Shown here in pieces: positions 14,447 to 27,613 of a stretch of DNA of 29,792 nt. Positions within the stretch are counted from its first letter, which is position 1. The number at the start of each line of letters is the position of its first letter. The notes beneath the pieces are model-generated. The model was not told the origin of the DNA, searched no databases, and was given only the letters and a program-made list of their open reading frames with translations. Both the position numbers and the translations under genes were made by a program. Source of the stretch: a virus; IMG/VR virus record IMGVR_UViG_3300025828_003868, positions 1 to 29,792 of that record, one strand, 5' to 3'.

Positions 14447-15803
14447 ATAAGTAGTCTTTTAACCTATCACCCTCGACTGGACGATCTAAGTAATCTTTAC
14501 CTAAAATCCAAATGTCTGGGTTTTTTTCGTCGATTTGTTTAATCCAGTCTTCATAACAGGCTTTAACCCCGCTTAATCCTCTTAAATACTGAGCACCTAC
14601 TGTGTGAAAAGCGTTACTCCACCAAATAACTGAATTTTCTTCTGGTGTAATTAGCTTAGTCACTTTTTCAGGATTAATACATATGTCAGTATGAATAAAA
14701 GTGTGTTTTAATGACCTGTATTTTTCCCAGTGTTCTTTGATTACTTTTTCTGATCCCCACCAAGCAATCTCTCGTTCCCATAATTTTTTTCTACTAAGAT
14801 TTTGTGTTTCGTTGCCCCCTGTTTCATCTATTCTATATTTCTTTTGTGCATAATCAAGAAACGCAGGATAATCTTCACCATCCCATTCAGTAACTAGTAA
14901 TTTTTTAAAAGCTAATGACGGTTTACTATAGTCAAAGAATACTACTTCTGAGTCTTCTTCAAATCCATAGTGGTGAAGAATCATATTAGGTTTAAAACTA
15001 GCAGCAACCGCATAGAGTTTTTTGACAGGTTGATTCATAGTAACATATTTTAAGTCTGAATAATTTTCAGTATTCCAAAAGAAAACACACTTTTGAGCAT
15101 AATTAGCAATAGAAGTAATCCATGATAATTGATGCTCTAACTCTGCTGCACTAGTTTTAGGATAGATATACTCTTTACACTCTCTAATTTTAGGATGAAA
15201 GTTGTATACAGTTAGATCATTAGCTAAAGAAGTATTTATGAAATTCCAACCATCAACTAATGGGGTACAAACGGTTAACTCTTCTGTAGGTTTCAAGGAT
15301 AATGGGGTATAGTCATCATGAATATCTTTTACGTGCCTACTAGCTTTGATAAGTGTTTCTTCTTTTGAGCTTTTTTCTCCAAAAACAGGCTTGTCAAACT
15401 TCTTATAATATTTAAGATTTACAAGCATACATTGTTTATGTAGTCCATAATAACCTTGTGCTCCACTAGGATTATTTTTATTTTTCTTATTTTTATCCAT
15501 AATGTGGCCTGTAATAAAGAAATCTTGTTTTTCAATCCATTTTTCGATGAATTGAAAAAAAGTAACTTCTTTGATTATATGACCAACTGATTGAACTATG
15601 CAGTAATCAACATCATATGAAAGTGCTTCGTCTAAAACATCATTGATATTATTTTTTACGATAATAGGGCCAAAATACTTAAATCGAGTAAAAAATTCTG
15701 TTATTTCTTTATTTTTTTCAGCTTGAGTTAAGTTTTGTGACATACGTGTATCATCATATATGCCTACAACGTAGTTTTTATTTTTACCCATGATTCTTTT
15801 CAT
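14430..15803 (-). CDS. Large phage protein, possibly glycosyltransferase-like
   Basis: This is a 457-residue protein. The N-terminal third (YVVGIYDDTR, then DYCIVQSVGHIIKE and FITGHIMDKN) reads like a nucleotide-sugar-binding alpha/beta fold. GYYGLHKQCMLVNLKYY is followed by a short acidic region. The rest is aromatic and His/Trp-rich (VFFWNTENYSDL, HYGFEEDSEVVFFDYS, AWWGSEKVIKEHW), without a clear catalytic motif. No transmembrane segments are visible. It overlaps both flanking hydroxylase-like genes, so the three are likely to work together. Two in-frame ATGs lie four codons apart (15803 and 15791), and I keep the longer. A glycosyltransferase role is a guess from the fold-like N-terminus and the context. 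Confidence 0.7.
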   Translation of the reverse strand: MKRIMGKNKNYVVGIYDDTRMSQNLTQAEKNKEITEFFTRFKYFGPIIVKNNINDVLDEALSYDVDYCIVQSVGHIIKEVTFFQFIEKWIEKQDFFITGHIMDKNKKNKNNPSGAQGYYGLHKQCMLVNLKYYKKFDKPVFGEKSSKEETLIKASRHVKDIHDDYTPLSLKPTEELTVCTPLVDGWNFINTSLANDLTVYNFHPKIRECKEYIYPKTSAAELEHQLSWITSIANYAQKCVFFWNTENYSDLKYVTMNQPVKKLYAVAASFKPNMILHHYGFEEDSEVVFFDYSKPSLAFKKLLVTEWDGEDYPAFLDYAQKKYRIDETGGNETQNLSRKKLWEREIAWWGSEKVIKEHWEKYRSLKHTFIHTDICINPEKVTKLITPEENSVIWWSNAFHTVGAQYLRGLSGVKACYEDWIKQIDEKNPDIWILGKDYLDRPVEGDRLKDYLYAYNC

Positions 15804-16416
15804 AGCTTCTCTCTACAAGATTTTCAAACTCTTTTGTTTTAACTCCGTGAACAATTATATGATATCTGTCTTCCTTACTATCGTTAATGTACGCATGCTC
15901 ATTGCCTACATCTAACATCAGTGCAGTCCCTGGCTCAAAAGGTACAAACCCTTTATGACCTTTCATTTTCATTTTACACCCATCAGGATGATTAAGAGCC
16001 ATATTAATTGGAGATAGCTTATTAATATCTGTATCTACATGAGGAGTGATATACCCTCCTGGCTCAAGTAACATGAATCTAACTCTAAAATATCTTTTGT
16101 AAGGAAATTTGTTTTTAAAGAAATTAACAGTATAAGGACATAAATCAGCTATCTCAGTCCAATGATAAGGAGCCTCATCATTTGATGAATAACCGTACTC
16201 TTCATAGTGATTAGTTTTTTCAGCGGAAATTCCGTGAATACATAAACTACGCCAACCTTTATGTCTATAGCCTCCCGTACCATCTTGATCTCTATGTTTT
16301 ACAAAAATACTCCTTAAAGCTACTGCCTCTTTAAGCATTGTTTCATGATCGTATTGTATATCAAGTTTAAGCCAAGGTAATTTACTCTTATTTACAATCC
16401 AATTAAAATCAGTCAT
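15784..16416 (-). CDS. Aspartyl/asparaginyl beta-hydroxylase-like oxygenase
   Basis: This 210-residue protein has the full iron and cosubstrate set of the aspartyl/asparaginyl hydroxylase family (PF05118 type): H126 and D128 in GGYITPHVDTD, H174 in GNEHAYIND and R184 in EDRYHIIVHG. VRFMLLEPGG before the HxD and PFEPGTALMLDV before the distal His are typical. The N-terminal 90 residues hold many aromatic residues and probably form the substrate cap. It would hydroxylate a protein or small-molecule target; which one cannot be told. The start overlaps the Fe-S carrier gene by 8 bases, and the end overlaps the next gene by 20. Having an Fe-S carrier next to iron-dependent oxygenases suggests attention to iron supply. 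Confidence 0.85.
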   Translation of the reverse strand: MTDFNWIVNKSKLPWLKLDIQYDHETMLKEAVALRSIFVKHRDQDGTGGYRHKGWRSLCIHGISAEKTNHYEEYGYSSNDEAPYHWTEIADLCPYTVNFFKNKFPYKRYFRVRFMLLEPGGYITPHVDTDINKLSPINMALNHPDGCKMKMKGHKGFVPFEPGTALMLDVGNEHAYINDSKEDRYHIIVHGVKTKEFENLVERSYEKNHG

Positions 16417-16927
16417 ATAGATCTAGTAACTCCTCATCAAAAGCAAAACTGGTACCACAACCACACGATGCACGTGCCCCAGGGTTATCAACCTTTAAAA
16501 GTTTGTTCATGCCTTTATCTTCTAAATCAATAGTAGTTCCATATAAAAACTGTAAAGATTCACGGTCTACCAAAGCAGGTGGCGAATCCGAAAACTTAAT
16601 ATCATTCTCCGAAATCGCTGTGTCCACATCAAACTCGTAATTAAAACCAGAGCAACCTCCTCCAATGACACCAAATCTAAAATATTGTCCTTTTTCGAGA
16701 TTTTGAGTAATAAAGATTTTAGCTTTTGCAGTAATATTTGGCAACTGTCCAGAATAAGATTGATCAATGATCGGAGCGTTTCCATGAAAATCATCTAATA
16801 CTTTATCAAAAAGAGAAAAGTCTCTTTTTTGTTCTTGCGGTTGCTCTCTTTCTAGATCAATACTGGCTTCTAGTTCTTCAAACCATTTATCAATATTAAT
16901 GTCGGATTGCTCTTGGTTGTGTGTCAT
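16409..16927 (-). CDS. A-type iron-sulfur cluster carrier (IscA/ErpA/HesB family) with N-terminal extension
   Basis: With the ATG at 16927 (GAGGA ribosome binding site 6 bases upstream) the protein has 172 residues. The family core begins near 62 and carries the three cluster-binding cysteines C92 (GGGCSGFNYEF), C155 and C157 (ASCGCGTSF). It would pass Fe-S clusters to host or phage enzymes; a radical SAM protein is encoded at 28739-29581. The N-terminal 60 residues (many Glu, Gln and Asp, including FEELEASIDLEREQPQEQ) are an addition to the usual 107-120 residue family length and may be a partner-binding tail. IscA-like genes are known in several marine phages, so the core call is strong. 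The start overlaps the end of the glycosyltransferase gene by 32 bases. Confidence 0.93.
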   Translation of the reverse strand: MTHNQEQSDINIDKWFEELEASIDLEREQPQEQKRDFSLFDKVLDDFHGNAPIIDQSYSGQLPNITAKAKIFITQNLEKGQYFRFGVIGGGCSGFNYEFDVDTAISENDIKFSDSPPALVDRESLQFLYGTTIDLEDKGMNKLLKVDNPGARASCGCGTSFAFDEELLDLYD

Positions 16928-18056
16928 GTAAATCCTCAAGTACTTTCACATAAGATTGAACAACAGATTCCCATGTATTTGGAAATGTTGTATTTTTCAC
17001 TTTTTCAAAATAATCTTTTTTATCGTGTGAATGATATGCCCATTGTAACATTTTTTGTAAAGATTGTCCATCAGGCTCATTCATAAATGTGTGAGAATTC
17101 ATCATCGTAAAAGAATCACCTGGTTTTTGAGCAAATATTTGACCAGAGGTAATATCTACGTGCTTTGGGTGAGTTTTTATTCTACGCCCTACATCATCAG
17201 GAATAAAGTCTTGATGTGGTCCAGTATCAGGTAGTATAGGCACACAACCACAAGCAGCAGCTTCTTGGATATGCATACCAAATCCTTCAGCTCTGTAAGG
17301 ATGTACTACTACCTTAGAGGCTGTAAACAATCCTGCCATCTCTTCATCTGTCAATGGGTCATCAATATAAAGAACCTTAGCACAGTCCGTTTTGTATTGC
17401 ATCTTAATAAGTTCATTTAAAACACTATTTTTTCCATAAATTTGAGGACTATCTTTGATAATTAATCTTGCATTATCGTATGACTTAAAGCAATTGTGCC
17501 AAGCATTGATTAAAAGATCTAGACCTTTTCGCCATTGAGAGTTTCCAACATAAACAAAATTAAATTTATCAGGATTTATCCCATATCTAGTTAAAGGCTT
17601 AGCTTCTTTATTGAATACTTTTTCATTATAACCGTTAGGCACAGTAGTAATTTTTTTAGGATTAATTCCTCCTCTAACAGCAACGTCTCTGATATAGTTA
17701 GAAGGAACAATGACATGATCAGCAAATGTTTCCCATTTATATTGCCACTCAAAAGGAATCTTTGGGTACTCCCAAGGTTGAATATAAACTACTTTAGTTG
17801 CTTCGTTAACAGGCCATTGCCATATAGGAGGATAAGAATGTCTTAATTGTATATCTGGACCGTTCTCAGGGTGTTCTTTTCCTTGTAATTCTTTTAACGT
17901 TTTAACTATGTTTTTTTCTACACCGTGTGTAGGATCAAAAGAATCAAGAGAAGTAATAAAAACGTTATGATATTTAGTAAGCTCTAAAGCAATATTTCTA
18001 TTGATAATAGTCAATGAGTGATTATCATAAAATTTTCCTACAATTTCAATATTCAT
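16896..18056 (-). CDS. Glycosyltransferase, GT-B fold, family 4 type
   Basis: This 386-residue protein transfers a sugar from an activated donor. The C-terminal donor domain has the family mark EGFGMHIQE with the paired glutamates E257 and E265 (EX7E). FVYVGNSQWRKGLDLLINAW at 167-186 is the start of this domain. The N-terminal domain (VPSNYIRDVAVRGG, TTVPNGYN) is the acceptor half. No membrane segment or signal peptide is visible, as expected for a cytoplasmic enzyme. It overlaps the upstream glycosyltransferase gene as TAATG and the Fe-S carrier gene by 32 bases. It belongs to the surface-sugar cassette; the sugar donor and acceptor cannot be told. Confidence 0.9.
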   Translation of the reverse strand: MNIEIVGKFYDNHSLTIINRNIALELTKYHNVFITSLDSFDPTHGVEKNIVKTLKELQGKEHPENGPDIQLRHSYPPIWQWPVNEATKVVYIQPWEYPKIPFEWQYKWETFADHVIVPSNYIRDVAVRGGINPKKITTVPNGYNEKVFNKEAKPLTRYGINPDKFNFVYVGNSQWRKGLDLLINAWHNCFKSYDNARLIIKDSPQIYGKNSVLNELIKMQYKTDCAKVLYIDDPLTDEEMAGLFTASKVVVHPYRAEGFGMHIQEAAACGCVPILPDTGPHQDFIPDDVGRRIKTHPKHVDITSGQIFAQKPGDSFTMMNSHTFMNEPDGQSLQKMLQWAYHSHDKKDYFEKVKNTTFPNTWESVVQSYVKVLEDLHDTQPRAIRH

Positions 18057-26091: not shown

Positions 26092-26200
26092 AAATCCCTC
26101 ATAAGTTAAGCGTGGGGCTTCCACCCACTCCCACCTCACTTTTAAGTCTGCGTGTCCAAGACTGTTAGATTCTGTTTCAAGGCTCTAACAAGCCCAGAGA

Positions 26201-26242
26201 CTATGCCGCTAGGCGCATCTCAGGCGCAAAGTTATCGTTTGC
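26201..26242 (-). other. tmRNA tag reading frame (ANDNFAPEMRLAA, stop TAG)
   Basis: The resume codon GCA is at 26242-26240 after AAATAAAT, and the frame runs 13 codons to a TAG. With the alanine carried by the tmRNA the tag is A-ANDNFAPEMRLAA. The ANDNFA start is what alphaproteobacterial tags show, and the LAA end is the usual signal for ClpXP degradation. Supported directly by sequence. Confidence 0.93.
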
Positions 26243-26315
26243 ATTTATTTAAGTCTTGCGGTTAAGGTCGCTTGCGCACCTGCTTCTCCACTCGCCTATT
26301 AACTACCTGTCGATC

Positions 26316-26420
26316 CTAGTTCGCCCCCATCATAAGCACTTCAAGTAAAGCTCCAAATAATATTATAATTAATCCAAACTCTACAAATCTTAGTAATAAA
26401 TAGGTTACTACATTGTGCAT
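26316..26420 (-). CDS. Tiny membrane protein encoded in the tmRNA spacer
   Basis: A 34-residue frame starts at ATG 26420 with GGAG five bases upstream and ends in the TAG of the conserved AACTAGG inside the tmRNA coding piece. 92 of its 105 bases lie in the 110-base segment between the two tmRNA pieces. The product has a polar start (MHN), a hydrophobic stretch with FGLIIILFGALLEVL in its centre and a neutral end, so it should be a single-pass membrane peptide. The frame is open and has a good ribosome binding site, but no homologue is recognised, so real translation is inferred. It can only be made from unprocessed RNA. Confidence 0.55.
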   Translation of the reverse strand: MHNVVTYLLLRFVEFGLIIILFGALLEVLMMGAN

Positions 26421-26473
26421 TTTTACTCCAAGTGTTTATGGTGGAGGCGGCGGGTACTGCCCCCGCGTCCAGT

Positions 26474-26584
26474 CTAGCGTTTGGTTCGCTTCTTCGAAGC
26501 TCTGTATCCTAAATAATCGGGCTCTTCTTTGATTTTAAAAATTTTTACAAACCAGCGTTCAAGCCATTCTTGAATGTAGCTCAT
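26474..26584 (-). CDS. Tiny basic protein ending inside the tmRNA acceptor piece
   Basis: A 36-residue frame begins at ATG 26584, 19 bases after the stop of the 26604-27191 gene, and ends in a TAG within the acceptor piece (CGCTAGACT). Its last part, RASKKRTKR, is very basic, and the first part (IQEWLERWFVKIF) is an amphipathic helix. AAAGG lies about 12 bases before the ATG, a weak ribosome binding site. It may be real or may be an accident of the tmRNA leader; no family is recognised. Confidence 0.4.
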   Translation of the reverse strand: MSYIQEWLERWFVKIFKIKEEPDYLGYRASKKRTKR

Positions 26585-27191: not shown

Positions 27192-27310
27192 TAGTCATTA
27201 AAACTCACAATATGCGTGTACTGAGTTTTTGACAAACCTTCTTTCACTAGAGAGGCTTTAACTTTAAATAGCTTTAAAATTAGTCTCTCAAAGAAAATAA
27301 CTAAGTTCAT
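27191..27310 (-). CDS. Truncated copy of the 27539-27811 gene end (39 residues)
   Basis: A 39-residue frame starts at ATG 27310 (TAATG with the stop of the gene upstream) and ends TAATG with the oxygenase-like gene. Its last 24 residues are 18 of 24 identical to the end of the 27539-27811 protein (both have KTQYT, one residue, then IVSFND). The DNA there, 27193-27265, aligns with 27541-27613 at about three quarters identity, with the first 21 bases identical. The first 15 residues (MNLVIFFERLILKLF) are a different, hydrophobic start. So this is a partial duplicate fused to a new start, either a new small gene or a decaying remnant; the exact coupling on both sides argues for translation. Confidence 0.6.
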   Translation of the reverse strand: MNLVIFFERLILKLFKVKASLVKEGLSKTQYTHIVSFND

Positions 27311-27613
27311 TAGTACTCATCTCCAGTGTATGTTTCAGGAATGCCTAGCCAAGCACTCACCCCAAAAACTTCCATAATCATAAAAGTAAACATTAATAAA
27401 ATGATACTCCATACTATCATTTTACCGCTAAAGTTTGATGCTGCAAGTTTGATAGCAATAATTTCATTACCAAAAAAACGAAGCATGAGTTCAAACTCAT
27501 TATGTTCGTTTTTTATCTCAATTGCTTTTTTATCATCGTCAGTCATTAAAACTCACAATATATGTATATTGAGTTTTACGCAGCTTTTCTTTAACAATAG
27601 CTGCTTGAACTTT
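27193..27613. repeat. Partial direct duplication (27193-27265 and 27541-27613)
   Basis: Two 73-base segments in the same orientation, about 275 bases apart, share 56 of 73 bases by hand alignment without gaps; the first 21 bases are identical. Both code for the C-terminus of a small protein in the same frame. A membrane-protein gene lies between them. The divergence suggests an old duplication kept under some coding constraint. Confidence 0.8.
27310..27546 (-). CDS. Small single-pass membrane protein
   Basis: This 78-residue protein has a charged soluble first half (DDDKKAIEIKNEHNEFELM), then one membrane segment MIVWSIILLMFTFMIMEVF (about 44-62) and a short polar end. It overlaps the gene upstream by 8 bases (ATGACTGA) and the truncated duplicate by 1. 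It sits between the two copies of the duplicated segment. No family is recognised. Confidence 0.75.
   Translation of the reverse strand: MTDDDKKAIEIKNEHNEFELMLRFFGNEIIAIKLAASNFSGKMIVWSIILLMFTFMIMEVFGVSAWLGIPETYTGDEY

Follow-up and report, generated by a model that had tools for sequence, protein, structure and literature searches.

What use, if any, can a phage make of the segment that separates the two pieces of a circularly permuted tmRNA gene? In the known members, this intervening segment is cut out of the mature two-piece tmRNA and is normally discarded. The window analysed here, a viral record of 29,792 bases, carries such a gene on its minus strand with a reading frame for a small protein in the intervening segment (hereafter the spacer). 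We consider it very probable that the gene encodes a working tmRNA whose discarded loop serves as a slot for small-protein genes, with a ribosome-binding site often paired into the precursor helix, and that the protein is translated from the precursor.

The first-pass annotation had described a phage-borne, circularly permuted two-piece tmRNA at 26110-26505. We were able to confirm this description, since ARAGORN, RF04321 and RF01849 agree, and the earlier coordinates were nearly correct, with the permuted call of ARAGORN at 26531-26110 (-). RF04321 scored 109.9 bits over 26500-26201 (gathering score 47) and RF01849, which had been suggested together with ARAGORN as a check, scored 97.4 bits over 26542-26161 (gathering score 50). 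The order on the minus strand is as had been stated, with the acceptor piece and its CCA end ahead of the spacer and the coding piece. CGCCTCC of the acceptor, with ACCA, precedes its partner GGGGGCG by 110 nt, and across the spacer the two strands form the 7-bp acceptor stem with G3:U70, the alanine identity pair. The tag frame is intact as well: it reads ANDNFAPEMRLAA up to its stop, as in the ARAGORN call, starts from an alanine resume codon GCA at 26242 and has an LAA ending of the proteolysis-tag type. A second pairing between the pieces, GCTTC with GAAGC, stands within the Rfam alignment, but the free fold favours a local GCTTC hairpin (GCUUCGAAGAAGC), and this pairing is therefore weaker evidence than the rest. 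No group I intron was found, the T arm being uninterrupted and the Rfam scans giving no intron family. Judged by these sequence features, the window gene is a complete alphaproteobacterial-type permuted tmRNA of a marine phage, and it is plausible that it sustains ribosome rescue, as had been proposed. What the earlier reading had overlooked is the protein gene in the spacer, which it had taken as plain. The features of the locus are listed in the table.

Table. Features of the permuted tmRNA locus and neighbouring reading frames in the window
Feature	Coordinates	Strand	Remarks
36-aa ORF MSYIQEWLERWFVKIFKIKEEPDYLGYRASKKRTKR upstream of tmRNA	26474..26584	-	stop within acceptor piece; relative at same place in L245
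Acceptor (tRNA-like 3') piece	26439..26531	-	CCA at 26441-26439; 5' limit by ARAGORN; RF04321 and RF01849 alignments
Intervening segment, 110 nt	26329..26438	-	flanked by CCA end and acceptor 5' strand
Precursor helix, 5' arm TAAACACTT	26430..26438	-	pairs with 26341-26333; MFE fold z -3.7
Shine-Dalgarno GGAG	26426..26429	-	5 nt before ATG; pairing probability with 3' part of spacer about 0.74
Spacer ORF, 34 aa, hydrophobic, MHNVVTYLLLRFVEFGLIIILFGALLEVLMMGAN	26316..26420	-	TAG stop ends 13 nt inside coding piece
Precursor helix, 3' arm AAGTGCTTA	26333..26341	-	TGAT leader next
Coding (mRNA-like) piece	26110..26328	-	acceptor 5' strand GGGGGCG at 26328-26322; 3' limit by ARAGORN; Rfam
Tag reading frame ANDNFAPEMRLAA	26201..26242	-	ARAGORN
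78-aa stand-alone gene	27310..27546	-	68% identity, E 3e-30 (tblastn) to 73-aa spacer gene of L137/L371

The spacer starts with TAAACACTTGGAGTAAAAATG, that is, with the helix arm followed by the Shine-Dalgarno motif and the 34-codon frame, whose product is probably membrane-inserted. Using the pattern VVTYLLLRFV, we found seven loci of this family including the window, every one of them in a tmRNA spacer, while the other matches (L545, L546 and L548) represent one unrelated protein sequence. The family is small, its seven loci providing six distinct ORF sequences, two of which differ only near the end. Between the window and L230, 17 nucleotide differences cause 4 amino-acid changes where 9.7 are expected, and none of 1500 simulations, in which the observed substitutions were relocated at random, gave a number as low. 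The comparison with L197 gave 7 changes against 10.9 expected (p ~0.01); some other pairs of the window family are not significant. Searches with tblastn gave no match of the 34-aa ORF among phage isolates, and the spacer ORFs had no confident family in PHROGs or Pfam.

To what extent such ORFs occur in other phages was read from a scan that selected on the acceptor 5' strand only, and is hence unbiased for the spacer; 94 distinct permuted tmRNAs were parsed among the matches listed. Thirty-six of the phage spacers among these matches are 100 nt or longer, and 17 of them include a Shine-Dalgarno site with an ORF of 30 aa or more, compared to about 1.4 in dinucleotide shuffles. In 109 bacterial permuted tmRNA genes parsed likewise, the median spacer length is 33 nt, and an ORF of this kind is absent from all 12 bacterial spacers that measure 60 nt or more. 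Further alphaproteobacterial genomes have short segments too, with few exceptions. Elsewhere in phages, ORFs of differing sequence occupy the same spacer position, such as MKNPLVQRVSKWMFRAYIVWSICADITLLAGIIYLVFF, MDEVILWEFRKELVKWICINNYSPRHARLIIMGAK and, in phage Melnitz, MFKWLSKTRLVVITRDYFRERNRKADAKIPKYLSG, and other phage spacers encode membrane-like proteins of 73, 77 and 82 aa. For the 38-aa MKNPL ORF, tblastn gave only weak, unrelated Arthrobacter matches.

The spacer-ORF families are, on the evidence of their substitution patterns, coding and under amino-acid constraint. In nine families the pN/pS ratio lies between 0.07 and 0.49, compared to 2.14 in a wrong-frame control. The individual values are 0.34 for MKNPL (56 sequences), 0.22 for INNYS, 0.30 for the Melnitz-like family, 0.27 for the L179 group, 0.45 for the KYLGK group, 0.28 for the window family, 0.49 for DLCM, 0.17 for the 73-aa and 0.07 for the 77-aa proteins, the last based on two sequences. 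These ratios are uncorrected Nei-Gojobori counts on related pairs, taken from spacer interiors without the helix arms and the overlap with the coding piece. Since k-mer clustering had merged some unrelated ORFs via the common tail ...MMGAK, the INNYS family was separated manually, and other mixed clusters were left out of the count of constrained families. In one class (families 1 and 10), the small first ORFs are unconstrained, with ratios of 0.96 and 1.28. In the MKNPL class, the first ORFs, which have the Shine-Dalgarno site AAAGGAG and encode 'DEEP' peptides, are accordingly not claimed as genes (pN/pS ~1).

In several comparisons, the content of the spacer is exchanged. Coding pieces that are at least 96% identical enclose unrelated spacer ORFs, as seen for L230 and L249 versus L371 and for L371 versus L404. 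The loci L163 and L416 are collinear, with 92% identity in the 3 kb upstream and 99.5% in the 1.2 kb downstream, and their spacers differ, one having 110 nt with an ORF and the other being empty with 30 nt. Moreover, the same slot is filled by spacer families without mutual sequence similarity, and members of these families are found outside the tmRNA. Homologues of the window gene at 27310-27546 lie inside the tmRNA spacer of L137, L370, L371 and L419, and the 73-aa gene of L137 and L371 is also a stand-alone gene in L404, L238 and others. In L198 and L319, an MKNPL gene immediately precedes the tmRNA, and the 82-aa spacer gene has relatives in the Pelagibacter phages Mosig and HTVC025P and in the Mediterranean fosmid phage MedDCM-S42-C7. 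The best reading of these sequences is that small protein genes can be exchanged in the intervening segment, which serves as their slot.

In both phages and bacteria, base pairing between the two spacer ends forms a conserved helix of about 10 bp, and TGAT stands directly ahead of the mature 5' end. The bases A(-2)U(-1) have been described as optimal leader bases for RNase P (PMC9433436). The window precursor folds better than its shuffled versions, and the ribosome-binding site can take part in the structure. In the window family, the pairing of the Shine-Dalgarno site is about 0.75 compared to 0.39 in controls with shuffled interiors, which retain the helix arms, so that part of the pairing stems from the helix itself. 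The first Shine-Dalgarno site of the MKNPL class lies within the precursor helix and pairs with the 3' part at about 0.96. Pairing is weak in L122/L385 (0.08) and in the L376 group (0.31), hence sequestration is not universal.

Translation, its timing and the membrane location and function of the product are what we infer from these features. The precursor is presumably cut into two pieces by tRNA-processing enzymes of the host, and with host-encoded SmpB these pieces would take part in rescuing ribosomes. The segment cut out may be regarded as a hairpin: its stem continues the acceptor stem, and its loop has been enlarged into the small-gene slot. Most likely, the 34-aa protein is translated, using its own ribosome-binding site, from a precursor that is still being transcribed and has yet to be processed, because in many members, including the window, this site can pair with the 3' arm, which is made later. 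Once the 3' arm has formed, translation would be turned off and processing would take over.

Alternatively, the permuted tmRNA of the window might be of the ordinary phage kind, its long spacer being non-coding and the ORF occurring by chance. Phage permuted tmRNAs are already known, and 72 of the 94 distinct unbiased cases among the matches listed lack a family ORF. However, the excess of ORFs over shuffles, the constraint in nine families, the stand-alone homologues and the unrelated ORFs within near-identical tmRNAs make this reading very improbable. Another idea is that the spacer is kept as an RNA structure, a processing or regulatory element, with the coding signal as a by-product. The conserved helix and the precursor fold (z -3.7) would suit such an element, as would the glutamine riboswitch that the Melnitz authors proposed near the gene (PMC9004378), but the differences fall mostly at synonymous sites of the ORF frame, dissimilar families share the slot, and between 25900 and 27400 Rfam gave no riboswitch match up to E = 5, with only marginal chance matches, far below gathering scores, besides tmRNA. 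We regard this explanation as extremely improbable. It is also very improbable that, instead of being a working tmRNA, it interferes with host trans-translation as a decoy or inhibitor: inhibition of the endogenous tmRNA in E. coli is described for a phage DS6A gene that resembles tmRNA but lacks a tag (quoted in PMC11915505), whereas in the window the tag frame, the resume codon, the LAA ending and G3:U70 are all intact.

The position of the stop codon raises a different possibility. In E. coli, RNase III cleavage yields the nonstop mRNA from which arfA is expressed, and trans-translation represses it (PMC10107115). By analogy, RNase P cleavage could strip the stop from the spacer ORF, leaving a nonstop message whose product mature tmRNA would tag for destruction, so that the protein would accumulate only when tmRNA is short. 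The ORF indeed stops within the coding piece in all six sequences of the window family, in four of four INNYS members and in 17 of 23 members of the Melnitz-like cluster, and there processing would leave a nonstop message. Most families, though, stop ahead of the cleavage site (MKNPL, 63 of 63), and the stop position is largely set by the frame in which the ORF enters the conserved tmRNA sequence. Hence, such a design was rejected as a general one, and as an explanation of the locus self-control of this type appears unlikely. Comparably tentative is a two-state precursor, in which a ribosome on the spacer ORF would keep the helix open and delay tmRNA maturation, while maturation would hide the ribosome-binding site; in the families that would lose their stop, new tmRNA would then destroy the protein of its own precursor. 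If this were true, phages would couple a small membrane protein to the capacity for ribosome rescue.

Our preferred reading, a working tmRNA with a small-gene slot, adds to what is known about phage tmRNAs. According to the Melnitz paper (2022, PMC9004378), this marine phage has a two-piece tmRNA, and phage genomes contain 53 tmRNAs of the two-piece type, 50 of them from marine or aquatic samples. Together with at least 120 matches in each of our two IMG/VR pattern scans for permuted tmRNA, this contradicts the first-pass annotation, which had called the phage-borne form rare. The alphaproteobacterial permuted tmRNA (RF01849/RF04321) has the same gene order, G3:U70 acceptor stem, T arm, tag frame and short helix of the spacer ends; its segments, however, mostly comprise about 33 nt and are without ORFs in our sample, whereas the window segment has 110 nt and contains a protein gene. 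The ssrA gene of the Methylophilales phage Melnitz, taken from an isolate genome, is likewise phage-borne and permuted, and its 142-nt spacer has a Shine-Dalgarno site and an ORF starting with MFKWLSKTRLVVITRDYF, which is unannotated beneath the SsrA feature. Neither the annotation nor the accessible text of the paper mentions this ORF, and the riboswitch proposed next to the Melnitz gene has no counterpart matched in the window between 25900 and 27400. As this example demonstrates, such genes are missed because the tmRNA annotation masks the ORF beneath it.

Intron-form tmRNAs with homing endonuclease genes (PMC11915505) also have a protein gene nested in a part absent from the mature RNA. 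There, self-splicing group I introns reside in the T-loop, whereas the window gene, of the permuted form, has no intron and its slot is the intervening segment. The same 2025 database paper (PMC11915505) describes extra content in the intervening sequence, one case each of a tRNA-Ala gene and of a repeat, with protein genes not reported. In the literature on tmRNA structure and phage tmRNA we found no report of protein genes in this segment; subscription papers were mostly outside the search and priority is unproved. Phage permuted tmRNA being known already, the protein gene in the intervening segment is the part that looks new. A segment usually treated as waste would then be a gene slot with different small proteins in different marine phages, and one transcript would yield a stable rescue RNA and a protein. 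This would provide phage tmRNA genes with a second selectable function and would allow the role of these genes to be tested in a cultured phage.

The DNA polymerase of the window genome is about 40% identical to those of T5-like coliphages, and further genes encode a DnaB-like helicase, a NAD-dependent ligase and many sugar-modifying enzymes. No smpB gene was found within the window record, and SmpB is thus assumed to come from the host. In the sugar-modification region, a gene with an aspartyl/asparaginyl beta-hydroxylase domain (15784-16416, -) adjoins one with an iron-sulphur cluster biosynthesis domain (16409-16939, -). The 36-aa ORF upstream of the tmRNA resembles, by eye, the KYLGK/KYLSG spacer ORFs.

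Some minor observations concern other loci. An unannotated permuted tmRNA-like gene is located in Erythrobacter phage vB_EliS-L02 (L003, 2501-3100); its tag frame was missed by the simple tag search, and a frame ending in ...DEVRLAA was seen by eye. Small genes of the spacer kinds with their own starts are present outside spacers in L168 (2717-2815, -), L222 (5134-5259, +) and L361 (6635-6715, +), ending in ...YEDLCM, ...YEDLCK and ...KYLTG and located directly after the tmRNA, before the tmRNA and after a tRNA CCA end, respectively. L371 has a second, partial tmRNA 3' region about 270 nt downstream (~1080-1195 in the oriented 4 kb extract), which looks like a gene end duplicated around a small ORF.
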